From Chrysoperla carnea (lineage: Eukaryota > Arthropoda > Insecta > Neuroptera > Chrysopidae), in NCBI RefSeq assembly GCF_905475395.1, contig NC_058338.1, positions 13,468,935 through 13,532,934 on the forward strand: a stretch of 64,000 nucleotides of DNA, in the 5' to 3' direction. Below the pieces are notes generated by a model. It was not told where the DNA came from, did not search any database, and was given only the letters and a program-made list of their open reading frames with translations. The position numbers were made by a program, and so were the translations under genes. Position 1 is the stretch's first letter; every line of letters starts with the position of its first letter. Positions 17,426-45,289 of this stretch are shown here, piece after piece.

Positions 17426-18645
17426 ATGCATCAATTTTTAACTATTTTAATTATTTTCAATGTAATGTTGATATCCACGCTTCAGGCTCAACCTCAGCAT
17501 TCATTTACTAGTTTGTAAGTATTTCAAAAATTTAATTTAAAAAAAAAAAAAAACAAATAATTACGTGAAATAATTTATTTCATAGGCGTGAAAAATTGCT
17601 TTATAAAGACATGTGTGACGCAGTCGATGAAAGTGACATGAAAATGATGAATGGACAATGTATTTTTGGCCAAAATTTGAAATTTAGTATTCTTTGTGGA
17701 AAAAATATTTGTTATCAGGTAAATAATTAAGGAATTAATATAAATGTTTCTTAAATAAAACGCCGTGTATATATCGATAAACCCATAATATAAGGTCTGT
17801 ATTTCCGGTTCCGATAAACCCACGTAGATCTATTTTTTTTTTTAAAGTTTTTATTTATTTATTATCCCTCGATTCAATGCTCCGAGTGAAGATAATCTAT
17901 TTGTTTATAATATAGCGGATTTTTCTTGCACCCTTGCAAAAATTTTGGAGTATATATAAATATTAGGAAATTTGTAGATTGAAAAGTTAAGTTATTATCA
18001 TTTTCTTGTTTAAAGAAATATTAGAAGAGAAATCGGCCAAATAGTCAATAAGTAAATCGTCATAGTCGTATTAGTCATAAAGGGTTAGTGATACAAAAAA
18101 TTGTTTTACAAAAAAAGGTAGGTAATTTGATTATCTACAATAAAGCCTATTACCATTTTTGGTCTAAAGTGCACGGTTATGGAGATATAGCCTACAACGG
18201 TTTTCCTTAAAAATGGAGGCACTTCCCCCGCCTATTTTTGTAAGGTTTTTGTGCATTGGCTGAATGTCGTGATACTGAACCTATTTAAATAAAAAAATAA
18301 CTCCTGTAATTTAGTGCATTATGGACAAGAGTAACTTGCTTCAATATAACTTGTATTATTTTTATTTAGTTTAAAATTTGGTGGAAAGGCGCATTCTATT
18401 TAAAACGCCTTAACAATTCTAACGGTATTTCCCGATACTTATCGGTTTATTATCGTGTCGTTTATTTTTATCTCATTAATAATTTGTATTATTTATTTTA
18501 GGGCCCTGATGACGTCTGTAATACGGTTATTAAATGTAATTCAAAATTACAATGTGTCGATCGCAAGTGTACCGGATGTATTACATTAGATTTGGGTTTT
18601 GGAATGGTCGAAACATGTTCGATACCACGAAAAAATAATTTTTAA
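17426..18645 (+). CDS. neuroparsin-like secreted cysteine-rich protein (isoform with exon C)
   Basis: Three coding exons join in frame: 17426-17514, 17586-17718 and 18502-18645, giving 121 residues. Residues 1-21 form a signal peptide (hydrophobic LTILIIFNVMLIST ending near LQA). The mature part has ten cysteines. The order C-x2-G ('QCIFG'), then 'NICYQGPDDVCN', 'KCNSKLQC' and 'RKCTGC' resembles the neuroparsin/IGFBP-like pattern, where a GPGDxC step and a closing CxGC are characteristic. Neuroparsins are secreted neurohormones; the ovary ecdysteroidogenic hormone of mosquitoes belongs to this family. Locust neuroparsin has twelve cysteines, so this version is reduced. The family call rests on the pattern, not on a search. 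The exon 2 donor is phase 0, matching both this exon and the second terminal exon at 20034. The ATG sits 23 nt after a splice acceptor, so the leader is spliced. Confidence 0.7.
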
Positions 18646-19586
18646 ATGAAGAAACGCGCTTAAACTATTCCAATTTTTCTTTTTTAATTTATTCCAATCC
18701 ACCTTAATTTATTCAATTATATTCAGTATTATATTATTATATACAGAGTGTTCCATGAAAGATTTTTGAATAGATTTATTTTTAAAACAGTTTTCAATAT
18801 CTGTGATATGTTTTAATTTTTTTTTAAACTCTTATCAAAAATGATTTTATGATTTTAAAATAATATTCTGTATATAATGAAATGTTTTTATTAAAATGTA
18901 TCATTTTAATTTTTGTATTTATTAATTTTTTTAATGAATTATTACGTCTTTTTTTAAAATAATTATAAATATTGAAATATATTATATAAAATTATTTGCT
19001 AACTGATTTTTAGAAGACATATTGTCAAAAAAAATCATTGTAACTGCAAAAAAAAAATTGAAAATATATATATATGTTAATCTTGCATAAAATGTTCAAT
19101 TTTTTTAAGTCCTAGCGCCCTTTATTGCACGGTACATGCTTTGTAATCAAATAATGTGTTATTTTTAGCTTTTTAGCTTTACAATACCACACAACCACAA
19201 AAATATATAATATATTGTGTGCAAATACTGCTTATAATTTTGATAATATAGTTATCTCTTTTCAATCATCAATACTGTAACTATAGTCGTCTCTGTTCAT
19301 CAAATGATGAATCTTCGATGAACTCATAATAAAATTAAATTTTTGTTGTTATATCATCGACAACCTTATATTTTTATGGTATTATTATAAACTACAAGAT
19401 TGTCTAAATATTTTAGATAGTTTTTTATCACACTCTCTAGATTTTTTGATATAGAAATATCCAATTGAAAAGGATAACCTATATGATTCATCATTTTTTC
19501 AGTCAACTTTGAACGATAAAATAATAAAAAAAACAGCCCGATGACCTAGGAATTTTTTTGTGATTTTTGGAAATTTTGTTAATCCA

Positions 19587-19840
19587 AAAAAATGTATTTA
19601 TAAAGTTTTATTGAAATCCCTAGTATTATTCAATCCTTGCATATTTTCTTAATTAATGCACTAGCTACGTGATTAACGAAAGAAATAGTTAAAAAATTCA
19701 TTTTAACATTCAAAAAAATGTATTTATAAAGTTTTATTGAAATCCCTAGTATTATTCAATCCTTGCATATTTTCTTAATTAATGCACTAGCTACGTGATT
19801 AACGAAAGAAATACATAGTTAAAAAATTCATTTTAACTCT
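19587..19840 (+). repeat. 126-bp tandem duplication, two copies
   Basis: Two adjacent near-identical copies begin 'aaaaaaatgtatttataaag' and include 'ccctagtattattcaatcct' and 'gcactagctacgtgattaac'. The second copy carries a 4-bp 'acat' insertion near its end. The near-identity indicates a recent local duplication in the intron or spacer before exon D. Confidence 0.9.
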
Positions 19841-20033
19841 GAATTAATTACACCAAATTTCTATCACAAGTTTTTTTAATCTACTGAGTGCGATTTATAT
19901 TAAACCAACGAAAGTACATGAACAGGCCCGAAAAGTTTTTTTTTTGCGTACATTTTTACTTTCGTGATGAGAAAAACTCTCACAATTTCTGAAGGACTTA
20001 TATTTTAACAATTTGCATTAATTTTTTCTTCAG

Positions 20034-20207
20034 GGACCTGGTGACTTTTGCAACAATGAAGAATCAGTTATTGTCTGTAATGAAAAGTTACAGTGTGTCA
20101 AAAACAAGTGTAGTGGTTGTATAGATACTTATACATTAGATATGGGTATTGCAGTGGTAGCACAACCAAATTGTTCTCAAGCACGAAAAAATGAGGTTGG
20201 AAAATAA
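20034..20207 (+). CDS. alternative terminal coding exon of the neuroparsin-like gene
   Basis: Preceded by the acceptor 'tttttcttcag', this exon opens in phase 0 with GPGDFCN and ends at TAA after 58 codons including the stop. It has six cysteines in the order of exon C: 'VCNEKLQC', 'NKCSGC', then a last Cys before a Lys-rich end. It would splice to the donor at 17718 to give a 131-residue isoform, and it carries the canonical GPGD rather than exon C's GPDD. It lacks its own start and signal peptide, so it works only as an alternative last exon, unless an unseen upstream copy of exons A and B exists; I found none between 18646 and 20033. Reading frame and splice site are intact, so it is probably used. 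Confidence 0.65.
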   Translation, partial: GPGDFCNNEESVIVCNEKLQCVKNKCSGCIDTYTLDMGIAVVAQPNCSQARKNEVGK

Positions 20208-20777
20208 ACAAATTTTTAATGGAAGATCCAATTAAACTAATCCATTTTTTATTAATTTATTCCAAGCCAACTTAATTTATTCAATTATATTCAGTATTAC
20301 ATTATTATGTACAGAATGTTCCAAGAAATATTTTTGATATGTTTTAATTTTTCTTATTTCAAAAATGATTTTATGTTTTTTAAACAATATTCTGTATATA
20401 ATGAAATGTTTTTATTAAAATGTATCATTTTAATTTTTGTATTTATTAATTTTTTGCTTAGAATTGTGATAACTTTTTTATTTAAAATAATTATATATGT
20501 TAAAATAAATTATATAAAATTATTTGCTAAATGGTTTTGATCAGTCATATTGTTTTTAGCTGCAAAAATTTTTAAAATATATTTACGTTATTCTTGCATT
20601 AAATGGTCTATTTTTATTATATTTCCAATCCTTATTTGTCGAGAATCCAGCCATATAGGCATGATTGGTATGCCCAGCACCTAAATAGACTTATCTATAT
20701 ATATAAAAGAATGGAAGCTGACTGATCGATCAACGCACAGCTGAAACCGCTGGGTCTAGAAATTTGAATTATTTTTA

Positions 20778-21939
20778 AAAAGTATACAAATCAGGTTAAT
20801 TTAATGATTGGATGCAGAGTTTCTGAGATATCGCAATAATTGGATCGATTTTAGTCCGTATCTCAAAATCTATTCGACCAGTCATCAAATGCACCCGATT
20901 TTTGAACTTTTTGGGTCAAAATTACCTTATAAACTGAGTTTTATCAAATTTGGAGATACAAAAAATTTATCGATTTTTTGCATTTTTTTTAAGGGGTACC
21001 CCTTCGAAAAAATCGAGAAAAACGCAAAAAAAATTTTGATTTGGAATTTGATGAAACTCGGTGGATGGGGTAATTTTGACCCAAAAAGTATAAAAATCGG
21101 TATAATTTAATGATTGGATGTATAATTTCTGAGATATCCCAATAATTGGATCGATTTTCGTCCGTATCTCAAAATCTATTCGACCAGTCATCAAATGCAC
21201 CCGATTTTTGAACTTTTTGGGTCAAAATTACCTTATATACTGAGTTTTATCGAAATTGGAGATAAAAAAAATTTATCGATTTTTTGCATTTTTTTTAAGG
21301 GGTACCCCTTCGAAAAAATCGAGAAAAACGCAAAAAAAATTTTGATTTGGAATTTGATGAAACTCGGTGGATGGGGTAATTTTGACCCAAAAAGTATAAA
21401 AATCGGTATAATTTAATGATTGGATGTATAATTTCTGAGATATCCCAATAATTGGATCGATTTTCGTCCGTATCTCAAAATCTATTCGACCAGTCATCAA
21501 ATGCACCCGATTTTTGAACTTTTTGGGTCAAAATTACCTTATATACTGAGTTTTATCGAAATTGGAGATAAAAAAAATTTTTCGGTTTTTTGCAATTTTT
21601 TTAAGGGGTACCCCTTTGAAAAAATCGAGAAAAACGCAAAAAAAAATTTTGTTTTGGAATTTGATGAAACTCGGTGGATGGGGTAATTTTGACCCAAAAA
21701 GTATAAAAATCGGGATAATTTAATGATTGGATGTATAATTTCTGAGATATCCCAATAATTGGATCGATTTTCGTCCGTATCTCAAAATCTATTCGACCAG
21801 TCATCAAATGCACCCGATTTTTGAACTTTTTGGGTCAAAATTACCTTATATACTGAGTTTTATCGAAATTGGAGATAAAAAAAATTTTTCGATTTTTTGC
21901 AACTTTTTTAAGGGGTACCCCTTTGAAAAAATCGAGAAA
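20778..21939. repeat. tandem array with 306-bp period, about 3.8 copies
   Basis: Units start at about 20820, 21126, 21432 and 21739, with the last one truncated. Each contains 'tgagatatcccaataattgg', 'tcaaatgcacccgatttttg', 'aaggggtaccccttcgaaaa' and 'gaaactcggtggatggggta'. Units 2 and 3 are nearly identical; unit 1 and the partial unit 4 differ slightly more. Repeated 73-77-codon frames on both strands are by-products of the repeat, not genes. The 5' flank (20690-20775: 'tatatataaaagaatggaag', 'cacagctgaaaccgctgg') resembles the start of dispersed insect repeats, so the array may have grown inside such an element. Confidence 0.92.
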
Positions 21940-22050
21940 TGCCATGACTTTTTGTATCTACTTCCATAGTTGCTCTTATTTACCTAAATTTAAAGAAAAC
22001 AATTCCTACCTTAGTATTTTGATTTAAATTATATTAAATATAATTAAAGA

Positions 22051-22349
22051 GCCTAAATGGCCGAGCGGTCTAAGGCTTTTGCCTTTGTCTGTTTGTCCAT
22101 TTAGACTTAGGTTGCGGGTTCGAATCCAGGCAGCGGTAGTGAGAACAATTTATGAGTAATGGGAGTGCAGAATTGATCTCATTGTCGTCGCTTGGATAAG
22201 AACGAAGTAAACGACTCCACCCACATCAAAATGTAATTGTAAATATGATTGTAATTAAATAAATAAAGATTAACAAATAATGATGTGGGTGGCGTATATG
22301 TCAGAGAAACGGAGGTTAAACCCCATTTTATTATTATTATTATTATTAA
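22051..22349 (+). mobile_element. tRNA-Leu/Ser-like SINE with (TTA)n tail
   Basis: The head at 22051-22139 keeps a class II tRNA look: 'aatggccgagcggtctaagg' is an A-box region typical of Leu/Ser tRNAs, and 'gggttcgaatccaggcagc' contains the B box. An unrelated body follows ('gtcgcttggataagaacgaa', 'gatgtgggtggcgtatatg') and the element ends in a (TTA)n run at 22328-22349. The head extends into a body and tail rather than ending in an acceptor stem, so this is a SINE. It is a different family from the copies at 9355 and 26971. Confidence 0.8.
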
Positions 22350-23091
22350 AATAATTAAATTGAAAACTAAAATAACTTACTTTTTTTCTAAATAATTTTT
22401 AGAAATTCATGATCTAATTATCTATACTTAAATTAATATAAAATATTTATAAAATAAACAGAGCGATAAGAATTGAACACGTGCTTTAATTATACTTACT
22501 TACATACAGAATAAGAAGCTCTACTTGGGGCCGAATACTTACTATTATTATAAAATATTTACATACCCAGACATTTCTATTTTATATTTATATCTTTTTT
22601 TAATCTGAAAATAAATATTTGTTAGATAGAAAAACAAACATTACAACTTTTTGCTTTAATTAAAATCTATTTTTATTTTGAAAAATAAGTACAGTAATTA
22701 ATTTATATTTTAAAATTTTCAAACCAGACTGTATGTCTGAGAGAGTACAATTTCATAAAATAATGTTCTATCAAATTTTCTATTTTGGTTTAAAAATGTC
22801 TCAAGATTGTAAGATTGTGATTTCATATCGCAAAAATTTGTGAAATACGAGACAAAAGATTGGTTTATTTAATTTTGGTCAAACTGCGTAACAACTTTGC
22901 ATTGCAGAGGATTCTAAAATTTGGGGCCCAATAAATCATTTCTTTAAGCTAACGTAATATTCTATGCTCTTATTAATTCATTTTCTATGATCACGTTGGA
23001 AGACCTTTTAGCGTAAAATCGTTCATTAAACCATCTTTAAAAAAAAAACTCATTTCAAGAGAAGACAAAGCAAAGGGTACCGTAGAAAACA
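22350..23091. other. AT-rich intergenic stretch
   Basis: No gene or repeat recognised. Confidence 0.5.
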
Positions 23092-23902: not shown

Positions 23903-26900
23903 CTATTTTTCCTGGGCACTTTTGATTTTCTTCCTTGTTAAAAATCCTCGAATGTTTGCTTGAATGGTTGTTGCAGCTTTTTTTATTACATTCTCCTCTT
24001 CATTTTTAATATTTTTTATGTCATCAACTTTTTTTGTCTTCATTTCATTTACACCAGTTGCAGCTTTTTTAATTGTTATGTCTTTTGTATCGTTTATTTG
24101 TTGTTTTAATTGGGTTTTCATTTGTTTTCGAGCTTTATAACCACGAAAGCCAGCTTGAATTTTCGTTGCAGCTTCATTTTCTTTTGTTTTATTTAAATTC
24201 ATTTCAGCGGTTGATGGTCTATTTTGACGTAATAATTTCATACTATCTGTAGAATACTTTGTTTCAATTTTGTTGTTGATTGCCAAATTTTCTAATGAAT
24301 TTTTTTCATTTGAATTCAGCACATCAGCGTCATTCGTATCTATTTTGGAAGAAAACCAAAAAGTGTAAACATTTTTATTTATTTATTAATTTTTCTTTTT
24401 TTTTTTTTGGATGTTCGTTATAACTAATTTTAAACTAATTTTTTTAACATAATATAAATTTTTTAAATATTTTTTATAATTTAATATCTACGTCAAATTA
24501 ATTATAATTATAAGCCGATATAGTAACTATGGCAACAAGATTTATGATAATATTGAAATGCAACTTCGTTGAATTTACTAAATCTGAGCATTTGAGGTTT
24601 GGTTATAGTAGTTGTGTACACACACATAGTGCAGTCAGTCAAGCGAACGATAGAACAGGGCTGTTCAGTCAGCCTTTATTTATGAACAATAAATTCATTT
24701 ATGATTTCCGTGGTATTTAAATGGGTTTATTAAATCTGAAAGTTGTTATACAGCTTGTATATTGCATATAGATAACAGTTATGACATTCAGTCAGTTAAA
24801 CGTTAGAACAGGGTTGGTCAGTCAGCCCTGTGTTAACAAATACCTGGCTGACAATTCTTAAAATTATTAAGAAATAATTATAAATAAAATTCGTAAGAAA
24901 ACTACAGCAAATTAACGAAGAACCTCTTATAACCTAATTGAAAATGACTGATCGTGGATTCTTACTACTATAATTCACGCTTACATGAGTAAAAGTCAAT
25001 AAATTTATTCTGGAACTTATATCTGGCGTTACTTTCTATTATATATTTTCTATTTTTAGTTGACTACCCCCAACCAAACTCCCCACAATGGAATGCCCCA
25101 AAATATCCACCAATTTTATTATTCCAAGGACGTATTACTGTCTATATTTTAACACCGATGCACCGCCTCCCCCCCCCCCCCGTATATAAATTCGAATTTC
25201 TAGAAGTTTCTCTATGAGCACAAGCAAGAAAGTCTCCATGGACACGACTTTTGATCTACCCATTAATACCATAAGAATCGTGTTTCTTGCTTTAGTTAAT
25301 TTGAAAATATTTCGATTTTTAAGACTAAAACTTAATTGACAAAATTTTTAAGCCTCAGGAATTGTAGTTTTACAACAGAGGTTGAATTGATAAACAAAAA
25401 AAAAATTAAATAGAAATCCTATAAAATCTAAAATAAGTAATATTTCCAACTAAATGTACAGACAAATTTATTTGAATAAATGAATTTTTTTTAAATTAAT
25501 AATAAAATTTAATTAAAATTAATTAAAAGTGGAAACTACGAAAAACTGGCAGGAAGTAATTAGATAAAAATTAAATATATATTATTTTAAAATAAACTGT
25601 TAAAATATTTTTTTAAATATTTAGATTAATTTTTCATAATAATAATAATATAAACTTAAAACTCGCTAATTCAAGAATTTCTAAAATTAGAAGAATTGTT
25701 TATTTAATGGAAAATTTTATTGATCACATAATAATTAAGTATGAAACAAATTTTTTTGTATTTTCAACTCGAATTAATAATATTATAATCGCACGTGTAG
25801 AGGTAATTTTCAATTAGTGACTAATTAATAGGTAGGTATAAATTTTAATTATGATTAATAAATAAATATTTATGAATGAATTTCCCAAGGTATAAATGAA
25901 ACTTTTTACGCGACTCTAATCGTCATACGTCATTAGATATTTCGTACCCCCCGTTCCCATGAAAATAATACTAAATCCTTCCCTTAAAGTCTGAACGAAA
26001 TCGGATATGTTTAAATTACTTCTTACTTAATTAAATCAATCAATAAATCTTCTGTTAAAAATTCATTTTAACAAAATTTTACTCTTTAAGAAAATTTTTT
26101 TAATTAAAATCAATACATTGAAAATTTAATATTGAAATATCGTCATACACGTTTGCACTTTGTTCACCGCGTACATAAAAAAACAGAACTTATGACATAA
26201 GTTGAAAAAAATTAAATAAAATTACTTTTTCGAAATATTTCTTTAGTTGCCAAGCTTTTGTAGAATGAACTATAGTGAATGCAAAAAATTGATTGATTTA
26301 TCGATATAAAATAATAAAAATTAAAATTTCATAAAATATAAAAACCAAATTTATACAAATAATTTTACAATATTTTTTAGGAATATTATTGTTTAAATAA
26401 AATTAATATTAGTTTTTAACTTAAATTTTACTTTCGAAATCAATCATTTGTTTGAATCCTTTATTAATTGATTAATTTTTAATAAATTTTAAAATTAATA
26501 ATAGAAAACTTACCTAAATCATTAGAATTTTCGACAATATTATCAACAATACGATGTTCTTGTGTATCAATATTATTTGAATTTAATGATGTTATTAAAT
26601 CATTTGAAACAGTTAAATGTTGTTTAGTTGTTGTATCGCTACCAGTAGTTGTTACGTTATTACTATGAATTTGCGTTGAGTTGGTTGGTGGCTCGACAGT
26701 GCTATTTGTAGAAACATTATTATTCGATTCAACATTTACATTCAACAACGGTGTTAATAATTGTTCCTTATTATTACTCACCATTGGGCTATGGACTTTT
26801 TTCTGTATAAATTAAAATTTCAAGGTCAATTTTCATAAATATTTTGTACTTATTGCACTTTAGAATGAATGAAATAAACCTACTTACATCCCGTCATCCC

Positions 26901-29900
26901 GAATATTTTGTTTATATTTTCATATACCCTGTGTATAAATAACTATATACAATAAAATAATCTAATTTTACTAGGTCAGTTGGTTAAGGCGTAACCAATT
27001 CTGTTCGTGGTATGCCTAGAGTAGCGAGTTCGATTCCCGCCGTCACAACAAAAATTAATTTAATTAATAGTTGTGATCGGCTGGTGTAGTGCATGGTATA
27101 TGCATGAAGGAGGTACACTCAGCCTCTGGAAATAATTGAGGAGCTGATAAATGAAAAAATCAGCGGAAAAGGTGGTAAAACGGATATATGGTATCATAAT
27201 GGCTCTATATTCTACGTGTGTTTCCCCGTGGGCAGCCAATATAACCTAACCTTCCCCTTTAATTCTCTAAGAAAACTAAAATTCGCATCTTTTTTGGAAT
27301 TACCCTCCACCAAGTACGCTTCCTTTTCAGCGAAAACTATCCGTTATGATAAAAACATGGGCGCTGTCAGGATTGCATTCAGGGGGTGTATGTATATCTG
27401 CATCTACACTTGGATGGGTCAAAACAATCGACTATTTTCTTTTACTTTCGATACCGAAAAAATGGTTTCTATCCACCTCTTGAAAATTATCTTCAAATAT
27501 GGGATATTAACATTAATAGGAAGGTCTTCCTCATCAAAGTTTTCATTTTATCTCAATCCATTATGAAAAATTCATATCTTGCCATTTATTGAATTTGCAA
27601 GAAAATCTCAATACATATTTTTGTAGGAACCACCTAGGAGACCGAGGTGGAAAAGAGTACCTACAATGAATTTTAATCTTTTTCTGTGTATTTTTCTTCA
27701 AGAAGCAGGTGGTGCAAATGCACTCCTTGCACCTCCCCCCAGCGCTGATTGATAAGATCAAATGGTTTAAATTATTTTCAGATGAGAAAAAAGATTTTTT
27801 TTACACTTAATCTTTTTGATTTCCAATGAATAGGTAATATAACTAATAATATTGATATAAGATATAACTAGATATAACTAATTTAAGTTAATTATTGTCG
27901 CCAAATTTTTACACTCTAGTGATTTCACAACAAACGCAACATATAACAATATTTCTATTTACCTCATTTCGACGTTTCAAATATTTTCGCCATGCAGATT
28001 GTATAATTAAAACTGCTGTATTGATATTACGAATATGAGTTGTTAAACTACTCATACCACTTGGCTCGTCGTCATTATCACTTAGGTCTTCATGTGAACC
28101 ATACGGATACGTACTTCCAATACTAATTTTTGCTAATATTTCTGGTTCTGGTATAGATTCTAAACTTTCATAATCACCATCAATTGTAATTGTATCGGCT
28201 GTGGTATTATCACGACTTTGTTTTCCATCTTCATAATTTTCAATTTTATTTGCTACTTTACCAATTTCATTATTATTTAAGTCATTTTCATTATGAATTA
28301 CATCTATTGATTCATTTGGAAAGTGATTTAGTGGTTTATAGTCAATTTCCAATGAATCTGGCTGAATACCAGAATCATCTAAATCAAGTTCTGGATGATT
28401 TTCATAAACAAGACCAGATATACTTTTCTGACTGGATACATCCACATCTTCTGTGTCATTTTTTGATTCGTCTAATTCCATTGGAAAAATTTCGTTTTCA
28501 TTTTCTTGTACTGACTTTGGATTTTGTTTTTCATTGTCTTCACCAAGAAAAAACTGCATTCCTTGTGGATTTTCTGTAGTTTGGCTATTTGATTCAATTT
28601 GTGTTTGGGTGGTATTTGAATCATTTTTATTTTTATTTTTATCTTCATCTTCCTTCGGAAAATTGAATGAAGGTGTTCCTAAAACTACAGTGTCATCATC
28701 ACTGTCTATGTCTTTCGTTTCATTTGATTTGGCAGTTAAATCATGCGCCTCAGTCATTCCTTCTGCAGGTACTTCATTCTTATTTAATAGAGATTCGTTT
28801 GCGTCTTTTATCTCTAGGTTTTCCCAACTATGGTTAGTTTTTTCTCCAACGCTTGCAGTATCAGAAGCTCTTTGCTGAACTTCATCTTTTGCTTCTAATG
28901 ATTCTTCCTCCTTATTAGTAGATTGATCGACATTCTCAGCTTCTTCTGATGTTTCGGTAACGACTACATTAGAATTATCAATATCAGCTTTACTTTCATG
29001 TTCTAATGGCTTATTCTCCTCATTTATTTCGATGTTATCTAGTTTGGTGGGTGTATGTCCATTCTCAGTGCCAGGATTTTTTTCGAATTTTCCTTTAGTT
29101 TCATTAGTTTCTTTTGTTGCAGATAGTTGATTTTCATTTATATCATTCTCTACTTCTCCATTTTCTTCATTATCTTGGAAAGTTTTAGGCGGTATAATTA
29201 CTTGAACACATTCTTTTTCTACTACCGGGATCATTTCAGATTGTTTAGTATTTATATTTTCGCTATCTAATTTTGATAATATTTGATGTTCAGAATTTTG
29301 ATTTTTAACTGTCTCTAAATTTTCATTTCCGTCTTCAGAAGCAAAATTTGGTATTATTTGAGAGTCAATCGAGGTTTCATTTGATCCCTTCTGCTCGGTG
29401 TCTTCAGTATTTTCTTGCTTCTCTGTATTCGTATTTTCGGGTTTTTCATTAATTTCTACATTCACAGATTCTTTTTCATCCTTGTCAGCATCTATAGAAC
29501 TTTGATCTAGTTGTTCTACATCAGCTTGTGAAGTGTCTTCAAGATTTTCAACGTGTTCAGAATTGTCATTGTTTGCAGTACCTTCTTCTGTTACTAGTAC
29601 ACTCGATGTTTGTTCAGTTTGACTCGGCACTTTATTGACAGTTTCTAAAACAGTTTTTAAAAGTTCCTCTGGATTTTGCCCAGACTTTCCAGAGTCATTC
29701 TCTAATTCACCAATATTTGTAAGATCATCCGATGTCTCCTGAGAAGTTGTTTTTACATTTGCATCACTCACTTGAACTTCACTAGTAACTTCAGTCTTTT
29801 CAGAATCATTTTCCAATTTTTCTGATATTTTATAATCTGTTGTTTCTTCCTCAAAAGGTACTTCCTTTTTCATGATATCGTCTGACAATGCATTATCGAT

Positions 29901-32900
29901 ATCTTCTGATTTTCCTAAAGTAACCGAATCTCGTGATGCTTCTTCAAAATTTTCTCCGACTTTTGTCGTAACCTCTATTGCTGGTTTAATGACTTCATCT
30001 AATTTTTCCAAATCATTTTCTGTTTCTTCAATGCTTTCAGATTTTTTTACTGTCTCTTCAGAAAGCTTTTCCTTTTTCTCAACAATCGCTGCTTCTTCAT
30101 TAAGAACTTGTTCAGACTGTTCTAAATCATTTTCTGATATTTCTTTGCTTTTAAAATCTTCATTTGTCTTTTCAGAAATATGTTCCATTTTCTCAGCATC
30201 CTTTGTTACATCAGAAACAATTACTTCAGGTTCTTCTGGATCATTTTCTGATTTTTCTATGCTTTTAGATTCTTGTGATGTTTCTGTAGAATTAACGTCT
30301 GGTTCTGAAGCACCTTTTAATTCTTCATTCACAATTTCTTCAGGCATTTCAATTTTATCTGACTCCTTTATAGTTTTAGATTCTTCTGTAATTTCTTCGA
30401 AGATATCACCCTTCTTTGTTTCTTCTGATTTTTCAGAATCTTTCAGCGTTTTGGTCATATTTTCAGATTTGTCAGTTTGTTCAATACCAATTCCTTCAAG
30501 TGTGGAAGAATCTTTTTCTGACTCTTTTATATTTCTAGAGTCATCTGGTAGATGTTTAGAGTCATTTCCGGAAATTGGTTCCGTTATTAAAGTATCTGGT
30601 GGTTCCTTCGAAATTTCTTCTTGCTTTTCTGAACTATTTTGAATATCATTGGATTCTTTCTCCATATTTTCAGAATCGAACGGTTTTGCAATTTCTTCTG
30701 CCAATGTTTCATTTTGTATTGTTGAATCATTTAGTTGACTATTTGATTCCAAATCACCCGTTTCTTTAACATTTTCCTCAGTTTTTTCAAGGGTAGACGT
30801 TTCATTTCTATCAATTTCTATTAATTTTTCTGCCGAAGTCTCTGAATGTACGGCATTACCATTCTCAAAAGTTCTTTGCGCATCTTTAAAATCAAGTTTT
30901 TCTGAAGATTGCTCAGATGTTGCTTCAGAGTTGGTATTTTCGCTTAGCTCAGATTCTTTTTCTTTTATTACATTTTCAATATTTTCATCATTTGATTTCG
31001 AATCGTTTTGAGTTTGCAAATCACTAGAAATTTCGATTACATTATCAATGTCACCCACAAAAAATTTGGGCTTTTCTGATTCTATTTCATTACTTAAATT
31101 CTTATCCATTTTGCCATCCTCTTTATTTATACTTGCATCTGCATTTTCTGTAAATTCAACGCCGCTTTCATTTTCAACTGATGCTTCTTTTGTGATATTC
31201 CCAACAATTTCTTCTGTATGGTTTTCATCTTCAGAATCTTCAGAATTCATACTTTTCAATGTTTCTGTAGTATTTGGATTAATACTAAGAGTTTCCGGAG
31301 AATTGGCATTAGAAACTTGTTCGTTTGCAATATTTTGTAATTCTTTATGTTGATCAGATTCTAATTTGGATTGCGGGTCATTATTTGTTTTTCCTATAAT
31401 GATATCCGTAGATTTTTCTGCTAGGTCAATATTTTCCGAATTTTCAGTATCTTTAGCAACACTTGATTCAGTTGTATTTTGAATTTGTTCGAGATTTTCA
31501 TTTCCTGTTGTGATTTCTGTTTCATTATTATTTGCAATGCCGTTGTTTAGATTTTCTAATTTTTCATTAAAAGCAATGTCTTGTGAATCCAATTGAGATA
31601 TGTTTTCAGATTCTTTCTCTTTTTCGGTGTCAGGCTTAGCTATATTCTGGGACTCAGTTTTTTCAGATTCATTTTCACTATCAAGTTTTGCTTCTGTTTC
31701 TGTGTCATTATGTACCTCTACACTTTTTTCGGAATCAGGGCCACCTTCGTTTTGTGCCTCGTCAACTTTTTCAGTTTTATTTTCAATTTCAATTTTTTCT
31801 TCGCTTTCTATTATGGTTTGTGGCTCTTTGCCTTTTTCAGAATCTGGCCCAGCTATAATTTGTGGCGCATCAAGTTTTTCTGATTCATTTTCACTTTCAA
31901 GTTTTTCTGCTGTTTCTTTGCCATTATGCGACTCTTCATCTTTTTCCGAATCAGGGTCATCTTTATTTTGCAACTCTTCAATTTTCTCTGAATCATTTTC
32001 GGTGTCAAATTTTGCTTCTATTTCTGTTACATTTTGACGCTCTTCAACATTTTCAGGATCTGCCTCTTCTGTATTTTCAAACACATCAACTTTTTCAGAT
32101 TCATATTCTTCTTTTTCATCTGTTTCTACTGCATTTTGAGGCTCGTTAATATTTCCAGAATCAAGTTCAGTTGTATTTTCTAACTCGTTCACTTTTCCAG
32201 ATTCATTTTCAATTTTTTCTCCTGTTTCTGATCCATTTTGTGGCTCTTCACCATTTTCAGAATCTTGCCCAGCTGTATGTTGAGATTCATCAACTTTTTC
32301 AGTTTCATTTTCTTGTTTTTCCCCTGTTTCTGATACATTTTGTCGCTCTTCACCATTTTCAGAATCTTGCTCAGCTACATTTTGAGACTCATCAACTTTT
32401 TCAATTTCATTTTCTTGTTTTTCCCCTGTTTCTGATTCATTTTGTCGCTCTTCACCATTTTCAGAATCTTGCTCAGCTACAATTTTAGACTCATTAACTT
32501 TTCCAGATTCATTTTCAATTTTTTCTCCTGTTTTTGATCCATTTTGTGGCTCTTCACCATTTTCAGAATCTTGCTCAGCTGTATTTTGAGACTCATCAAC
32601 TTTTTCAATTTCATTTCCTTGTTTTTCCTCTGTTTCTGATCCAATTTGGGGCTTTTCACCATTTTCGGAATCAAACTCAGCTGTATTTAGCGATTCTGTT
32701 TCTGTTACAATTTGTGGCTTTTCCCTCTTTTCAGATTCAGGCTCAACCATATTTTGTATTTCATCAGCTTTTTCAGATTCATTTTCATTTTGAGCTTTGT
32801 CCTGTGATTCTGTTAGACTTTGCGGTTCTTCTATGTTCTCTGTCTCGATATTCTGACGTTCTTCTTCTTCAGATTCATTTTCAGTGTGCGATTCAGCCAA

Positions 32901-35900
32901 GTTGTGTGCTTCGCCAGACAAAGCGGCCTCTGAAAGACTTTGGGATTCTTGATTTTGTATTTCTTGTTGGGGTTCTGATTCAGACAAACTTTGAGATACC
33001 TTAATATTTGGTTCATCAACTTCTATTTCTTGAGGCTTGTTTAATCCAAGGTCTTTTCCTACATTTTCAGTATCTTGAATTTTATCACCCTTTTGTGAGT
33101 CTTCAACATTCTCAGATTCTGATATGTTTTGAGTTTCCCCTGAACTCTCAGATTCAGGTACTTGTTCAGATTCTACAACAGTTACAGGTTCAGATAAGCT
33201 TTGAGGTTCCTCAGATCTTTCAGATTCGGGATCATTTTGCAATATACTTTCTGCCTCTAACGATTTATCGTTTTCCTCTTTATCAGTGTCATCAGGTGGT
33301 ATATCGTCGACAGATTTCTTATCGATGTCATTAACATTTTCAGATTCGGTCATATTAGTCTCTTTTACATCTTTTTCAGATTCAATATCAGGTTTAATTT
33401 CTATATTATCAGATTTCTCAGATTCTACACCATTTTGTTCTTCTATGTTATTTGCTTCCGAGGCTTCTTCCGTAGCTTGTTTACTACCAACTTCAATGTC
33501 TTCATTTGGTTTCTCTTCAATTTCTTCCGTATTTTCCGTTGGACTTTCATTTGTTTCTTCGATTTGTTGTAAATGTTCATTTGCTGAACGTTTACTTCGG
33601 CTCGTTTCACTGGCATTTGATGAATTATCAATCGATTTATTAAATAATATATTTGCTGATAGTAATGAATTGAATACTAAAGCTAGGTTCTTTTTTTTAT
33701 CTAAATCGGTAGCAGCAACTTTAGGTGTTTTATATGTCAATTGGTTATCTTCAACAATGTATGCTATGTTCGAGCCGTTGTCAGTTGTTTCTTCACTTAA
33801 TTCAGCATCTAAAGAAATAACAAATAATTATAGACATTACTAGCCAAAAAAAATGTTTATTATCCCCATTTAACTTAGAGATAAGTTGTTATTCGAGAAA
33901 AATTGATTTTACTGAAGGGTAAAAAAATTATAAAGACATCTAAAAATTGTAAATGGATCCAACACTTTTTGTAGGAACAATTTTTCAAAAACGAATTCCT
34001 TCATTGGAAATCTAAAGCAAAAATCATTACCTATCTATATCCCACTCTATTTCGACTCCTATAGAAATTTATTTAAACTTAAATTTAATAATTTAAATGA
34101 TTACTGTATCTACACCCCAAAAATTTCGGGGGGAAATTTGGCAAACAAAATATTATTTACATATATTTGATATTCTTGGAGAAATAGACTAGAATCATCG
34201 AGTGAAATCTGTCACCGTCTCCTAGTCTATCATGTTAAAATACCCAGTGGCTATAAGTATTTAAAATGTCAAAAATTTAAATTATTAAATTTATTTATTT
34301 TTAAATACTTTTATTTTAAAGATCTTTCTAATATTTTTTTTAAATCAAAATCTGAAATGCTTCAAATATTTGTATTTACTTTCCCATACATTCAAGACTC
34401 TTTAGGTATAAACAAAGTAAATAAGTAATAAGTATAAATTTTCAAAATGGCATTTTGCACTTTCGAGACAAGTATTTGTGGTTGTCCTCTACGTGTTGGA
34501 TCGTTTGCTTTGGCCTATTATGAACTTTTAGTGCATATGGTATGGATCGGTAAGGAAGTAAAAGAATACGATGTTATAGGAAGTCATACTTTAGAAGCAA
34601 ATATCCGAATGCAACTAGATATTTTGACAACTGTAGTTATAATTATTGCTAGTGTCATATTATTAATGGGTCTATACTTGTACAATTTATTATTGTTGAA
34701 AATATTTCTTTTGATGGATATTTTCCATCTTGTAGTTATTGCTGGTATGGTCATTTCGAAATTTTTAAACCATGTTCCATTGAACGTCTGGATGGATTTT
34801 ATTCAGGGCGGTATTTCTGTCTACGTGATAGTGATGATTTATAGTTATAGAGTAGAATTAAAAAATGAACAATTATTTACAAGGGAGTTGTATAGACCAG
34901 CATTATTTATTGTTTGAAAAGCACTAATACAAAAAAATAAATAAATAATTTCTTAATTAATAAACAATCTTTTTGTATCAGTATTATTATTTTTTTTTTT
35001 TTTGGTATACCCTTTTTTATTGCCTCTTGATCATGAACCCGATCCCTTTTGGGTGTACATTCATCCGGCTTTCGTTCAAAATATAACGAAAAACAGCTGT
35101 AGCAATGTAGCATAAGTACCTGGATGATCAAGCTTTGCTCGATATTTTTTGAGTTAAAAAGGCACAAATTTTATCACCGTTGAGGAAGTTGAATTGCGTT
35201 TGGTCTCTTTCACGACTTTTATCTCAACAACCTATTAGCCAAAAAATTGTTAAATAACGTTCAAATAACAAGACAAACTTTAATCCAAAACTGACTAAAT
35301 ATAATTTTAATACAAATTGAGATGGGCCCACCCAACTCTTTTCTAATTATTTTAACACCCAGTAGTACACGAACTTTTCGGGTGGAAGTTCTTTTGAATT
35401 TCCGTTTAATTGTTACCAATTTTGTTGGCAAGCTTTCCGTTCATAAGTTTACAAAAAAAAAAAAACAGACAGGATGTTCAGGATGTTAAAATACATGGAA
35501 AAAGTTGGCTGGATGGTTCATCTTTAATTAACACACAGTATCTTATGGAAAAACTCACAATAATGTTAATTGTACAAAAAATTGATCACAGATTCTGTTT
35601 ATGCAAAAAAAACTTTACCTTACGACGCTTTCCAAAAAAAAACTTTGGTTTTTGACGCTTTTTCGATATTTTTAGAGCATTTTATTACATTTAGTTGACT
35701 AGTCACATGACCGGACTACTTTGACTACTTTAATTTGGAAACAAAATTTTTTTAAATAAAAGTTTTTAGTCTGAACGTTATTTGAACAAAAGACAAAAAT
35801 AACATTTTTCAGTTTTTTTTTTAAATAAAAAGCTGTTCCTTTCAATAAGACTGCAATCAATTTTCTAGTCATAAATGAATAGGTAACCTTGATTTTTGAA

Positions 35901-36178
35901 TGGATTCAATCTAGTTAATAAATCAAAGAACTAATTTTAAAATACTGACCTAATTTTTCTCGTAAATACAATAATTTTTCAAAATGTTGTGCAGCAAACA
36001 AATGTATATTTTGTGGCTGAGCTTTTAATATATGTACGGTTAAATTATTCATCAAAATTTCTAATCCCTCAGGAACTGATACACTTTTAACTTTATCATA
36101 ACGTGATGATAGAAAATTTATTCGATCACTTTCTGGCGGTGGTGTAGACATAATATCGTCTTGTAAAATTGGTGCCAT
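23903..36178 (-). CDS. giant RIIa-acidic repeat-IQ protein (SPA17/CABYR-like architecture)
   Basis: Four coding exons join with matching phases: 36178-35950, 33808-27963, 26802-26514 and 24339-23903, giving 6801 nt and 2266 residues. Residues about 30-72 form an RIIa dimerisation/docking domain ('VPEGLEILMNNLTVHILKAQ', 'FAAQHFEKLLYLREKLG'), as in SPA17, CABYR and PKA RII. Residues about 77-2000, all from one exon, are a Glu/Ser/Asn/Asp-rich, probably disordered tract, including a clear array of 34-residue units. Three IQ motifs follow: 'AVLIIQSAWRKYLKRR' at the end of exon 2, then 'AATKIQAGFRGYKARK' and 'AATTIQANIRGFLTRK' in exon 4. RIIa domains bind AKAP helices and IQ motifs bind calmodulin; relatives are sperm-flagellum proteins, so a flagellar role is inferred. 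SPA17 is about 150 residues, so the middle is a huge expansion. AATAAA on the minus strand (23889-23894) lies just after the stop. Intron 1 holds a nested gene. Confidence 0.85.
24340..26513 (-). other. intron 3 of the RIIa/IQ gene
   Basis: AT-rich. It contains two related blocks about 155 bp apart (24630-24680 and 24787-24830) sharing 'cagtcagt', 'gatagaacagggctg' or 'gttagaacagggttgg', and 'cagtcagcc', so a local repeat. A C-run of about 14 lies near 25170. No nested gene seen. Confidence 0.55.
26803..27962 (-). other. intron 2 of the RIIa/IQ gene
   Basis: It contains the SINE at 26971-27125 and a GC-richer unidentified segment at 27190-27750 ('ccacctaggagaccgaggtg' is a small hairpin near 27632). 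Open frames there are not supported as genes. Confidence 0.5.
26971..27125 (+). mobile_element. tRNA-derived SINE (copy 2), intronic
   Basis: Same family as the copy at 9355: 'aggtcagttggttaaggcg' is the A-box region, 'gagttcgattcccgccgtca' holds the B box, and the body has 'taattaatagttgtgat' and 'gtgcatggtatatgcatgaa'. This copy keeps the A-box region better than copy 1. It is inserted antisense in an intron of the RIIa/IQ gene. Confidence 0.82.
31600..32800 (-). repeat. 102-bp (34-residue) coding tandem repeats in the giant exon
   Basis: The word 'ctcttcaccattttcag' recurs at about 32245, 32347, 32449 and 32551, exactly one 102-bp unit apart. Outer units toward 31600 and 32800 are progressively diverged. 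Each unit encodes a block like 'EQDSENGEERQNESETGEK' followed by 'QENEIEKVDESQNVA'. The homogeneous centre and diverged edges fit unequal exchange or slippage. The frame stays open throughout, so selection for length in multiples of three is likely. Confidence 0.88.
33809..35949 (-). other. intron 1 of the RIIa/IQ gene, hosting a nested gene
   Basis: The intron ends (donor GTCAGT after 35950; acceptor tttctttag before 33808) keep the frame of the host gene as G/AT = Asp. A plus-strand gene occupies 34447-34917. The rest is AT-rich, with no further gene; the frame at 35410-35655 is low complexity. Confidence 0.75.
34447..34917 (+). CDS. four-pass membrane protein, insect-type (DUF4728-like)
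   Basis: An intronless frame of 156 residues. Hydrophobic segments lie at about residues 17-37, 57-79, 82-104 and 112-134, with a short Cys-rich N-terminus ('CGCPLRVGSFALAYYELL') and a charged C-terminus. A CxCxLRxG start followed by four membrane passes is typical of small tetraspan proteins that are abundant in insects (DUF4728 and related septate-junction proteins). I rely on topology and this motif only. The gene sits inside intron 1 of the RIIa/IQ gene on the opposite strand. AATAAA occurs at 34936-34941, 19 nt after the stop. An intronless nested gene could be a retrocopy, but the frame is intact. Confidence 0.7.
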   Translation: MAFCTFETSICGCPLRVGSFALAYYELLVHMVWIGKEVKEYDVIGSHTLEANIRMQLDILTTVVIIIASVILLMGLYLYNLLLLKIFLLMDIFHLVVIAGMVISKFLNHVPLNVWMDFIQGGISVYVIVMIYSYRVELKNEQLFTRELYRPALFIV

Positions 36179-37800
36179 TGGAATTTTTTTTTAATTTTTA
36201 AAAGTGAAAATTTTGTTAAATTTCTAGTAATAGGTTTTATAGATTATCTCACAAGGATAAAATAACTTTATACTATGAAAAAATTAAATATTCGAAATAT
36301 GTTAATGTGGCTTTAATGTTGTTATAGTGGTCACTAAGGCTACCAACAGGGGTGTAATCAAAGAACTTTCAGCCTCAATAAGCTACTGTTGAAGGTATAT
36401 ACTAGCATATATACAAAATCATACTCAATTGTAATACCAATTGTATAGCTCAATTGTATAACGCGTTTCTGATTTGCTACCTTTTTAATTAATAACTAAT
36501 TATCCATGCATCGGATAAAAAAATGGATGGGGAATCTTAGAATTTTATGTTCTATCTGATGCAACAAGGGCGTCCATTGCTCCTAATACGTGGAGGGTTA
36601 TAAAATGTATCAGAAGTATATTATATCGAGTCCCAAGTATTTGTCTGTCGTCATCACGTTAACTCGAGAAGGAAAAAGATATCGAGCTGAATTTTTTATA
36701 GCAATAGTATAAAAAGGGGCTTAACAACATATGTCAATAGGTTTTTGTCCACTAAGAATAAATCGATTGGATAAAAATTTCATTGATTATCGGTAAGGGA
36801 AAAACTTGATCCAAATGCTCTACCAAACACATTCGATAATATTTGGGAGGTTTAAGGAATCAATTTTAAGGTAGTAATTCAACTTAATCCAATTCTGATT
36901 AATGAACTGTCCAATTTATTAAAATCAATATTAGTGTTTTAAACATTCTCAGAAAACGAAAATATACGACCTTGATGACCTAGGTCAATGTTTTACCTTA
37001 ACCTAAGCCTAAATATCAATACATTTTTAAATAGCACATAGGTTGGTTGCTACCTATATAGTATATACCTATACTATATGAGCCTGGGACATCGGGCTGT
37101 TAGCAGGGAGCATAGGAGATGCAAGGGACAGCTAAATCGATTGTAGCGTTGATATATTTTAAAATTTGCAATAAATCATGCATTTTATTTAAAATATGAC
37201 TAACTTTCAATTGTTGACATGTAAATGTGATTTCAACAATTAACTCAGTCAATTGCTTGTTTTCACTTGTTACTCATTGAAATTTGTTACAAAATAATAT
37301 TAAATTTTCAATGTAATCCATATAGACAAACCATAAACTAATAAGTCCATCCATACAATTATATTAATAAAGTAATTTAGGTTTACCATGGAAACAGCCT
37401 GAAATAAAACTCATGCATCATGCCAACAGGTATGTTATACATTAATATACGAAAACGTAAATAATAAAGGTACCTATTGCATAATATTAGAAAAATTCTG
37501 CATCACACAAAAATTGTATGTAAATAATGTAAATTTTGACATAAACGAATGGACGAATTATTTTATGAAATTTGTGGATCACCTCCGCATTTTACTCTGG
37601 TTGTCATGTAAATTTTTTTGTATATAAACTAAATATCATTTTAATGTCAGGCCGTTTTGACTGCAAAGAAAATTTTTTTAAGAAACAAATTATTATTTTT
37701 CGAATAAATACAGTATGTCAAAAATGTTTTAAACCAATCCTATCGGCCGCGACAGACATGCTGTTTGACATGAAATTTATAAGAAATGATTTGAGTGCAA
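36179..37800. other. intergenic region between the RIIa/IQ gene and PAM16
   Basis: This should hold the divergent promoters of both genes. A decayed repeat related to those at 5155 and 60465 is at about 36640-36710 ('gtctgtcgtcatcacg', 'aaaaagatatcgagctga'). No gene: the frame at 37572-37808 is unsupported. Confidence 0.5.
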
Positions 37801-37966
37801 ATGATTAGTTAAAACTATATTTATATAAATTTTTATTAAAAAATGTCCAATTTTACTTTAGATGAATCGTATCTTGTTTGATATATGCCGTCTAAATGTA
37901 GTAAAATACCTTTTGTGTTCAAGTCTTGTTTCGTTATTTTATGAAAGATTGGCTCTTGTATTAAAT

Positions 37967-38538
37967 ATGAAAGTTTTATTACAATCGTTAATTAAAATTA
38001 CCTTTGTGTCGAGTAATATAATTGTTAAAGCACTTTTAAAATCAATCAAGGAGGAAATTCGATTATCTCAACAAGCGGCTAGGTAAGAATCAATATTTAC
38101 TCATCCTCCATATAGAACATATAGTTGTCGTATCATTAGACGAAAAAAATTTCCTAATTTACATCCACACTCTGAAAAGTTCTAGGCAAAAATTTCAAAA
38201 TTTTACACCCCAAAGAAAAAACCATATTTTTAATAAAATATAAATATTTTAGAATTCGTGCAGCGGAACGTCAAGAAAATTGTAAATCAAAAATCATGAG
38301 CTTACATGAAGCCAAATTAATATTAAATTTAACTGAGCCTGAACAGTTAAATAAAGAATATATTGAAGACAAATGGAAACGTTTATTTGAAGCAAATAAA
38401 AAAACTGGATCTTTGTATTTGGTATCGAAGATTTATGTAGCAAAAGAACGTTTAGATATGGAATTCAAAAATAATAATTTATTAACCGAAAAAAATGTAA
38501 ATATAGATACTACAACAAATAAAAAAATTTCAAAATAA
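37967..38538 (+). CDS. Pam16: PAM16/TIM16 (Magmas), mitochondrial import motor subunit
   Basis: Two exons, 37967-38082 and 38253-38538, join as ag|a (Arg) for 133 residues. Residues 1-40 ('MKVLLQSLIKITFVSSNIIV' then 'KALLKSIKEEIRLSQQAARI') match the hydrophobic N-terminus and the QE..A.RAAA-like segment of Magmas. Residues about 55-110 form the degenerate J-like domain ('SLHEAKLILNLTEPEQLNKE', 'YIEDKWKRLFEANKK', 'GSLYLVSKIYVAKERLDMEF'), which lacks HPD as expected. PAM16 pairs with PAM14/DNAJC19 at the TIM23 channel and restrains its stimulation of mtHsp70 ATPase. The frame extends upstream to 37862, but the ATG at 37967 fits the family start. AATAAA overlaps the stop codon. It converges on DPH5. 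Confidence 0.9.
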
Positions 38539-39008
38539 ATACTTATTTATACACTTGTTTTATACGCATGCAGACCCAGTATTCATTAGCGAGCCGAGCC
38601 CGCTAGCCAATGTGTGGCAAACCTTGATTTGTCTGGCGAAGCGTTAGTTATATATAAAAATAAAATTTTAATTCGCGACCCCAAGAACCTAAGTGGCACT
38701 GTAATGACAGTTGAAGAGTGCATTAACATCTACATGGTATGGGATTTTAATGCTAAGCAAGACTATCTCGCGATAGAAAAAAGAACTATACGTATTAGTT
38801 CGCATAGATATATAATATTTAACGGAAATGTTGAAAAATTTCTAACCATCAATAATACTTGTTCTATATTTTTCTAATTTTTTATTCGCTTAATGTTTTG
38901 AAGTAAACTAATTTCAGACAAAGTAAAAATAAACACAAAAGAATGAAAAATCAATTTTGATTTGTATTTACGCAAAATATATACAATCACTGGAATTCAA
39001 CATTAGTT
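38539..39008. other. spacer between convergent PAM16 and DPH5
   Basis: An 87-codon frame starting at a GTG (38614-38877; it contains 'RDPKNLSGTVMTVEECINI') does not look like any family I know and lacks an upstream ATG. It is GC-richer than its surroundings, so it may be a transposon or gene remnant. The minus-strand AATAAA at 38881-38886 would serve DPH5. Confidence 0.4.
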
Positions 39009-40575
39009 TTAATTGTCTTTTACAAAACTTTTAATATAATCTTCTTCTAATGGATGTAATTTTGAAGCTGGTATTACAAGTGAATGCAATGGTGCGCCTA
39101 AATCACATTTTACCATTTCTTGTAATGAACAAGCTGTTATTTGTTGATCACAACCACCAACTCTTGCTACGCCTATAGCTAATGATTCTTTATATATTCC
39201 TGCAACAACAAAAATTTATAATTATAATGAGAATCCTACGGTATCCGGAACTTCAGGGATTTATTGAGTCCTCTTAATTAACAAGTAGATTTTTAAAATT
39301 CAACAAGAAATAGTTCATTAATATTTTTAGTGCAATAAATAAATATAATTTGAACAGCAAAGTAAAAAATATTTTTATAAATATTTAAATTTCTTACCAT
39401 CTGATACACCACGCCTATCAATTACTTGAAGAATTTGGCTAGCTGCTTCAGCAACGGTCATAAAACGTGGTGGCATATATTCTTTCTTTTTTCTAGTCAT
39501 ACTTTCCAAAGTAGGTTCTTTTACTTTAATATCTACATTAAAAATTAAAAATAAACTTTATATTTTAACAATAAGAAAAAATTAGCCAAATTTTTTCCCA
39601 AAATTTGTATACTATACCTAACAAACAAAGTGTGTGTAAGCCTCTAGTGAAATTTGCACATATTTTGTCAAAAAAACTATCTGGTCGCCAATCTTCCGTC
39701 CAAAATGGTATAGAAACTGTTTCACCAAAACTATATAACTGTAGCCCCGTACATCCGATTGCATTTAAAATAGAAGCATTATGTACAATTTCACATTTGA
39801 TACCTTGCTCTTTTGCACGTAGTACTAAGTCTGTGTGTGTTGTTGCTCCATACGGATCACCAACCACCAATAACGCGATGTCTGAAGTTCGTGCTCCAGA
39901 TAATATTTCATCTGCATTTTGTTCAACTAAATCACGATCAGCAACAATAATCGATCTGCCGTAATACTCTTCCTGTTCTAATAATTTTTATTAAGTATTT
40001 TTAAACCAATAAAATAGACATTTAATACTAAAAAAATAGCGAGAACAACTCCTACACTAAGGTCATGCCTCCCAAATAGATGCTTCTTATTATTTACTAC
40101 TTTCTATTGAAATGACATATTTGTCTTCCTAATCTAAAAAAACAGGTAAAACGAAACAAATATTGTTAACCCTTTTCCGATTTTTCTAAACTTTAATGTA
40201 ATGTTTAATTTTCTTGCTTTACTTTTAAATTTCCCGCCTTTCTATTATTAAAGTTACTTAGTACCGACCTGCATAAACACAACTCAATGATAATTAGTAA
40301 AAAAAGATACTTTAGTAACTAAGCTTTGAAACAGCATTACTAAAATCGATATAATATATAAAAATTTGGTTATAAAATCCGTGATTAATAAAACCTATTT
40401 TTTCCAAATTCATTAGAAATAAAGAAATTTTAATAATTACCAAAGCTTTCACGCCTCCCGTTAAAATTGATGTGTAGTTTTCTAGGTAAATCTTATCACA
40501 TTTCTTAACTATTTCCAACCCTTTTACTGAAATGTCTTTAACATCACCCAATCCTAAGCCTATCAAATAGAACAT
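39009..40575 (-). CDS. Dph5: diphthine methyl ester synthase DPH5
   Basis: Four exons, 40575-40441, 39972-39618, 39532-39398 and 39199-39009, join in consistent phases for 271 residues (human about 285). The enzyme transfers methyl groups from S-adenosylmethionine to the 3-amino-3-carboxypropyl-histidine of elongation factor 2, the second step of diphthamide synthesis in the cytosol. The family is recognisable along its whole length: '[20 protein letters not shown]' at the N-terminus, '[20 protein letters not shown]' (SAM-binding glycine loop), '[20 protein letters not shown]', '[20 protein letters not shown]', then '[18 protein letters not shown]' and the C-terminal '[20 protein letters not shown]' and '[20 protein letters not shown]'. 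No truncation or broken motif is seen. Confidence 0.96.
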
Positions 40576-44410: not shown

Positions 44411-44481
44411 TAAGTAAGTAAATTTAATTTATATTGTAAATTAATTAAATAAAATTAATAAAAATTGCATTTTAGATCAAA

Positions 44482-44715
44482 ATGGCTGGTGCAGGTGATG
44501 CAGCTGAAGAAGCAAAATTATCAGGTCTTTCAAAAATATTCAATGGAAACACCATGAGAGGTCGAGCTAATGTGAGTTAATGAATGAGCTTTGCGAAAAT
44601 ATTGTCTATAATAAAATTGTATTTTCTTTTGTTTATTTAGGTAGCTAAAGCAACTTACGCCAGTATAGGATTATTAATCTTTTATTTTTCTGTCAAACCA
44701 AAATCCAAAAAATAA
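44482..44715 (+). CDS. ATP synthase membrane subunit DAPIT/USMG5 (subunit k)
   Basis: Two short exons, 44482-44571 and 44641-44715, join in phase 0 for 54 residues: 'MAGAGDAAEEAKLSGLSKIF', 'NGNTMRGRANVAKATYASIG', 'LLIFYFSVKPKSKK'. This is the DAPIT pattern: a charged N-terminus, the GLSKxFN..T..GRANVAKATY block, one membrane helix at about residues 37-49, and a short basic tail. DAPIT is a mitochondrial inner-membrane subunit that supports ATP synthase dimers. The start follows a 5' UTR splice acceptor by 6 nt. AATAAA at 44765-44770 gives a 3' UTR of about 60 nt, so the transcript probably ends only tens of bases before the PDE6D start codon. Confidence 0.93.
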
Positions 44716-44769
44716 TTTAATTAGTTGCTAAGTTGTGATAATGTAAAAAAAAAATTTGTTTGAAAATAA

Positions 44770-45243
<474 letters not shown>

Positions 45244-45289
45244 AATTAATTTAATTTAATTTCAATAAATCGTACATTCATATCAAATT

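Follow-up and report, generated by a model that had tools for sequence, protein, structure and literature searches.

Can one neuroparsin gene give rise to two hormones by choosing between two last exons? The question is raised by a locus of Chrysoperla carnea that lies within a stretch of 64,000 nucleotides, here called the window, which was analysed as a whole. The window is AT-rich, with a G+C content of 0.24-0.34 per 2 kb, and carries animal genes. The neuroparsin family is that of the locust neuroparsin and the mosquito OEH. Venus kinase receptor has been reported as the neuroparsin receptor (PMC4888303), and neuroparsin has been tied to reproductive plasticity in ants (PMC11398701) and to dominance in bumblebees (PMC12785732). 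The role of multiple neuroparsin isoforms is poorly understood. An earlier note on this DNA had described a neuroparsin-like gene whose terminal exon is duplicated in tandem, and had proposed that two hormones could be made from it.

Gene Anatomy and Splice Sites

The predicted gene comprises two common coding exons and two candidate last exons, delimited by splicing and translation of the sequence as follows.

17426-17514, plus strand: coding exon 1 (89 nt), encoding a probable signal peptide and a few more residues; ends in phase 2
17586-17718, plus strand: coding exon 2 (133 nt), common to both predicted isoforms, with four cysteines; ends in phase 0, at a codon boundary
18502-18645, plus strand: putative alternative last exon 3A (GPDD type), 144 nt with the stop, 47 aa, six cysteines, a 5-residue loop between the first two cysteines
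20034-20207, plus strand: putative alternative last exon 3B (GPGD type), 174 nt with the stop, 57 aa, six cysteines, an 8-residue loop between the first two cysteines

The start of exon 1 is hydrophobic and points to a leader, the signal peptide being judged by eye. The donors of exons 1 and 2 are GTAAGT at 17515 and GTAAAT at 17719, respectively. Exons 1 and 2 add up to 222 nt; therefore, the junction at 17718 is in phase 0, as the earlier note had claimed. Splicing and translation also bore out the phase-0 openings that it had placed at 18502 and 20034, each followed by six cysteines and a stop. Both last exons open with Gly-Pro codons at the splice point. The conceptual isoform A (exons 1-2-3A) is 121 aa long and isoform B (exons 1-2-3B) 131 aa, with 10 cysteines each, and both spliced frames are open to the stop when translated.

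The splice sites were ranked with a rough matrix score, which was applied to the plus strand only. On this scale, the donor at 17719 stands at the 99.3rd percentile among 3142 GT sites. Among 2666 AG sites, the 3B acceptor reaches the 99.4th percentile (99.7 with a variant of the score) and the 3A acceptor the 88.2nd (91.1 with the variant). The acceptors of both exons had been called good, which holds for 3B, whereas that of 3A is only fair. An acceptor-like tract, TTTTTTTATTTCAG, was recognized by eye; it ends at 17402, 24 bases 5′ of the start codon, and because of it a noncoding first exon may lie further upstream. Each predicted message contains three coding exons, the same count as that given for the neuroparsin of Zootermopsis (PMC4237046).

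A cysteine motif written from the two last exons occurs at only these two places in the six frames of the 64 kb; thus, the likeness of 3A and 3B is not due to chance.

Extent of the Duplication

When the locus was compared with the window by BLASTN, 18476-19104 paired with 20005-20615 over 678 columns at 70% identity (E 2e-97). The terminal exon is indeed duplicated in tandem, and the duplicated stretch is larger than the earlier note had claimed, since it takes in the following features.

18646-19104, plus strand: presumed 3′UTR and downstream part behind the 3A stop, duplicated along with the exon; ATTAAA at 18890
20208-20615, plus strand: presumed 3′UTR and downstream part behind the 3B stop; ATTAAA at 20231, 20414, and 20598; AATAAA at 20504
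18862-18931, identical to 20386-20455, plus strand: 70-bp block containing ATTAAA and one UGUANAUA site

The identity between the copies is 0.74 in the coding part (106/144 ungapped columns), 0.83 in the first 150 bases past the 3A stop and their 3B counterpart (97/117), and 0.86 in the remainder of the unit (239/277). In the intron ahead of the acceptors it is 0.48 at 100 to 27 bases upstream (33/69) and 0.50 in the last 26 bases (13/26), and beyond the unit it drops to 0.37-0.45 per 60-column window. Because identity is high across the exon and behind the stops but low in the intron and outside, the copied unit is taken to be the terminal exon plus about 400-460 bases past the stop.

The stretch behind the stops differs at 58 of 394 columns, versus 38 of 144 in the coding part (Fisher p 0.003). 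It has changed less than the nonsynonymous sites (Fisher p 0.03) and far less than the synonymous ones (Fisher p 0.0005). A run of 70 identical bases was equalled in 1 of 20000 permutations of the differences behind the stops. Plus-strand sites of the motif UGUANAUA, which is Pumilio-like, number 24 across the 64 kb. Rfam at gathering scores gave no match in the window. In the one species examined, two explanations fit: selection acting on the 70-bp block in the two messages, or gene conversion keeping the 3′ ends alike.

Family Assignment

PF07327 (Neuroparsin) is the top Pfam-A match of both isoforms. Isoform A scores 26.5 bits, above the curated cutoff of 23.5, and isoform B 22.0 bits, which is 1.5 under it. 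The single exons give 21.4 bits (3A) and 16.1 bits (3B), and exon 2 has no match to this profile. For a second profile, the sequences of seven neuroparsins of crustaceans were taken from three papers; it scores A at 16.7 bits and B at 22.7 bits. For each isoform, this score was reached by none of 500 full shuffles and none of 500 shuffles with the cysteines held fixed. The highest cysteine-fixed shuffles scored 14.1 (A) and 19.9 (B), so that the margin of B is small. The description of the gene as neuroparsin-like is upheld by the PF07327 match being the best for both products and by the cysteine-fixed shuffles; against the curated family cutoff, A stands, while B taken alone falls short. These scores support placing both predicted proteins in the family, B as a borderline member. 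In viral and prokaryote collections, no confirmed relatives were found either for isoform A (17 pattern-matching stretches in viral_contigs) or for isoform B (38 in genome_contigs).

The earlier note had also linked the protein with an IGFBP-like fold. When A and B were combined with the crustacean seven into one profile, two matches were found among solved chains, both of them SIBD-1 (3zxc, E 0.03; 3zxb, E 0.032), and it is the crustacean sequences that carry this profile. Isoform A alone found nothing in the PDB up to E 10. Models of the single exons had a mean pLDDT of 67.9 (3A) and 42.1 (3B), too poor to be used; that of 3A gave 11 PDB matches, the best at E 5.0. An IGFBP-like fold of the conceptual proteins is, at most, weakly suggested by the SIBD-1 matches.

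Cysteine Pattern and Loop Lengths

With 10 cysteines, each isoform has few: six crustacean sequences have 12, and the seventh, which is printed without its start, has 11. Neuroparsins aligned from ten species have 12 to 16 (PMC11398701). After the second cysteine, the crustacean spacing is 8-4-7-9-5-1-2-2-5/6-5/6, one sequence having 3 for 4 and lacking the first cysteine. The middle part, 7-9-5-1-2-2 in all seven, reads 7-5-5-4-2 in A and 7-8-5-4-2 in B, where the spacing of 4 is accounted for by 1+1+2, another residue standing in for the middle cysteine. In both isoforms, nine cysteines occupy family positions and the tenth lies near the last one; the eighth is missing, and so is either the eleventh, which is the likelier, or the twelfth. 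The spacings 4, 7, 5, and 2 are kept, the 8 of the family is 11 here, and its 9 has become 5 (A) or 8 (B). Since the same cysteines are missing in both isoforms, their loss probably predates the duplication. It is no more than a guess that the two had paired in a disulphide.

In A, the loop that distinguishes the isoforms is 5 residues long; in B it is 8, and in all seven crustacean members as well as in the printed SIBD-1 stretch it is 9. The loop of A is thus 4 residues shorter than the crustacean one. Judged by the extents of the matches to the Pfam profile, A shows no net gap, B carries 3 additional residues, and each of the four crustacean pieces aligned carries 4. The length seen in A is therefore not exotic, since it corresponds to the Pfam consensus. 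Moreover, the loops perhaps differ by chance, as A and B are set apart by three coding indels; the chance that one of the three falls in that loop was calculated by hand to be about 0.4.

Probable Use of the Two Last Exons

The locus is best explained as one neuroparsin gene that has three coding positions and whose third, duplicated in tandem, provides alternative last exons. To this reading we assign a probability of about three in four. A common leader and the first four cysteines, from exons 1 and 2, would be spliced from 17718 to either 3A or 3B. In the case of isoform A, exon 3A would be used, with cleavage and polyadenylation behind it. In the case of isoform B, the weaker 3A acceptor would be skipped and exon 3B joined, with its own 3′ end. 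The outcome would be two secreted, cysteine-rich proteins having the N-terminal half in common and different C-terminal halves. The use of either junction and the secretion of both products are predictions from the exon sequences, a hormone role is suggested by the family, and the isoforms may differ in function.

The divergence of the two copies bears on this explanation. Aligned with each other, 3A and 3B have 29 of 47 residues identical and keep all six cysteines. Their coding indels measure 9, 9, and 6 bases, all multiples of three; those behind the stops measure 16, 4, 29, 8, 7, 4, 12, 5, and 1. Over the 47 aligned codons, dN is 0.28 and dS 0.62, which gives an omega of 0.45 (bootstrap interval 0.16-1.14). 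The interval includes 1, so that the exon as a whole is still compatible with neutrality. The first 27 aligned codons have a dN of 0.23 and a dS of 1.34, and the last 20, past the GC motif, a dN of 0.37 and a dS of 0.21. In a one-branch simulation of neutral change (20000 runs for each of four settings), the frame was kept in 4.6-12.9% of the runs, and the frame together with at least six cysteines in 0.2-0.9%, cysteines being counted whatever their position. This simulation overstates the surprise, because the locus was picked for its intact look.

Such figures leave some room for a spare exon, that is, for one copy, 3B or 3A, being unused or hardly used and not yet decayed. It would agree with the omega interval of the whole exon, with the ratio found in the 20 codons past the GC motif, and with the share of neutral runs in which the frame alone survives. 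The high dS of the first 27 codons, however, argues against a young duplicate there, and frame, stop, and six cysteines are intact; the coding indels in multiples of three and a 3B acceptor that outscores that of 3A also count against it. A spare exon is accordingly considered unlikely. Still less probable is that 3B terminates a second neuroparsin gene, located downstream and with first exons of its own, although tandem neuroparsin genes are known in the bugs Halyomorpha (PMC6250713) and Riptortus (PMC10985886). Exons 1 and 2 were each detected once in the window by tblastn (next best E 0.18 and 1.4), and the exon-2 motif was found once in its six frames. The interval between the copies has two plus-strand frames that open with ATG and are 15 aa or longer, and no phase-0 GT occurs in either at or after codon 16, a search that shorter first exons would escape; moreover, homology between the copies starts only at exon 3.

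An assembly artefact, in which two alleles of one exon were placed in tandem, is scarcely credible. Only the likeness behind the stops would speak for it, whereas the coding divergence of 26% and the dS of the aligned codons far exceed ordinary allelic difference, and the sequences outside the unit are not alike. Origin of 3B as a retrocopy was considered as well, since homology starts near the acceptor, but it was rejected because no poly(A) tract was seen by eye at its end. Alternative use of 3A and 3B by one gene thus stays the preferred reading. As regards the earlier claim of one gene with two hormones, the anatomy, the phase, and the open frames hold, and two products, for which Locusta offers a precedent, are the most likely outcome; the splicing and the hormone role are what we infer beyond them.

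Surroundings in the Window

Several other elements surround the gene. The spacer just 5′ of exon 3B contains a direct duplication of 126 bp (19585-19837, 96% match). About 160 bases past the end of the 3B homology begins a tandem array, at 20777-21939, of 3.8 copies of a 306-bp unit (97% match), with inverted likeness between its parts. The stretch ahead of this array may be a Helitron-like end; a 20-base piece of it had no match in viral_contigs. At 22050-22350 there is, by eye, a tRNA-derived SINE-like element with an A-box-like GCCGAGCGGTCTAAGGC, a B-box-like GGTTCGAATCC, and ATT repeats at its end. ARAGORN found no tRNA in the window.

On the minus strand, a repeat-rich open frame of 1972 aa (27909-33827) lies between a RIIa-domain piece (23903-24382) and an IQ-motif piece (35915-36190). 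These three possibly belong to a single gene for a sperm protein similar to SPA17/CABYR. Ordinary conserved genes occupy 37900-48330; their Pfam matches comprise Pam16, TP_methylase (39565-40587, minus strand), Voldacs/pICln, an ATP-synthase regulator, GMP-PDE delta, and a C2H2 zinc-finger protein; the TP_methylase gene is presumably DPH5-like.

Comparison with Known Systems

The closest known counterpart is the neuroparsin gene of Locusta migratoria (Veenstra 2014), which has seven coding exons and gives five mRNAs with the first two exons in common and one further exon each. Four of its products lack four residues (Gly-Gly-Pro-Tyr) that true neuroparsin has and are called neoneuroparsins, and exon 7, the last, encodes neuroparsin proper; whether the neoneuroparsins are antagonists was raised there as a question and left open (PMC4237046). 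The present locus resembles that gene in its two common coding exons followed by an alternative last exon of the same phase, here as genomic anatomy only, and perhaps in a short deletion within a cysteine loop. It differs in having two last exons where Locusta has five. The neoneuroparsins of Locusta are short of four residues; here the loop has 5 residues in the near exon and 8 in the far one. To judge by the wording of PMC4237046, the loop that varies between A and B may be the Gly-Gly-Pro-Tyr loop of locust neuroparsin. Because A and B are still 83-86% alike behind the stop, the duplication seems to be a local event, distinct from that in the locust.

A tentative idea, which we hold to be rather improbable, is that the split into neuroparsin and neoneuroparsin has been re-created outside the locusts by a terminal-exon duplication of its own. 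The near exon would encode the short-loop form and the far exon the long-loop form, in the order found in Locusta, and the conserved block could control both mRNAs together. In that case, the long-loop hormone may have its antagonist or carrier in the short-loop form, and the locust antagonist idea would become testable in a second, simpler system. With one half in common and the other in two interchangeable versions, such a gene offers an easier setting than that of the locust, with its five ends, for finding out to which half the receptor binds and whether a short-loop isoform blocks the long-loop one.

In Schistocerca gregaria, four cDNAs (NPP1-4) encode precursors whose first 61 residues are identical and which have at least 10 cysteines (PMC1574313), and the present isoforms are similar both in the common N-terminal part of the precursors and in the number of at least 10 cysteines. 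In Gryllus, two neuroparsin precursor forms were merged in one locus, and there is a second locus in addition (PMC9960350). Among bugs, 9 of the 12 neuroparsin copies of Halyomorpha lie on one contig (PMC6250713), Riptortus has four tandem genes (PMC10985886), and Nezara has many neuroparsin transcripts (PMC6250713, PMC10985886). Halyomorpha and Riptortus are like the present case in the local multiplication of neuroparsin DNA but unlike it in having separate genes rather than alternative last exons.

According to PMC10985886, most insects have one neuroparsin gene that yields several transcripts via alternative splicing, so that the gene described here is less unusual. In the neuroparsin and OEH literature, covered mostly at the level of listings, the word neoneuroparsin occurred in one paper and no account of this gene was noticed; it is not claimed to be unpublished. 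In the beetles studied, the neuroparsin gene is present in a single copy except in Oryctes, and the last exons of the allatostatin CCC and DH37/DH47 genes are duplicated (PMC6585902). The latter are comparable in that a duplicated terminal exon leads to two peptides per gene, as predicted here, although the peptide families are unrelated. The architecture of the locus is therefore of a known kind, and what it may add to the systems described is an isoform difference in the length of one cysteine loop.
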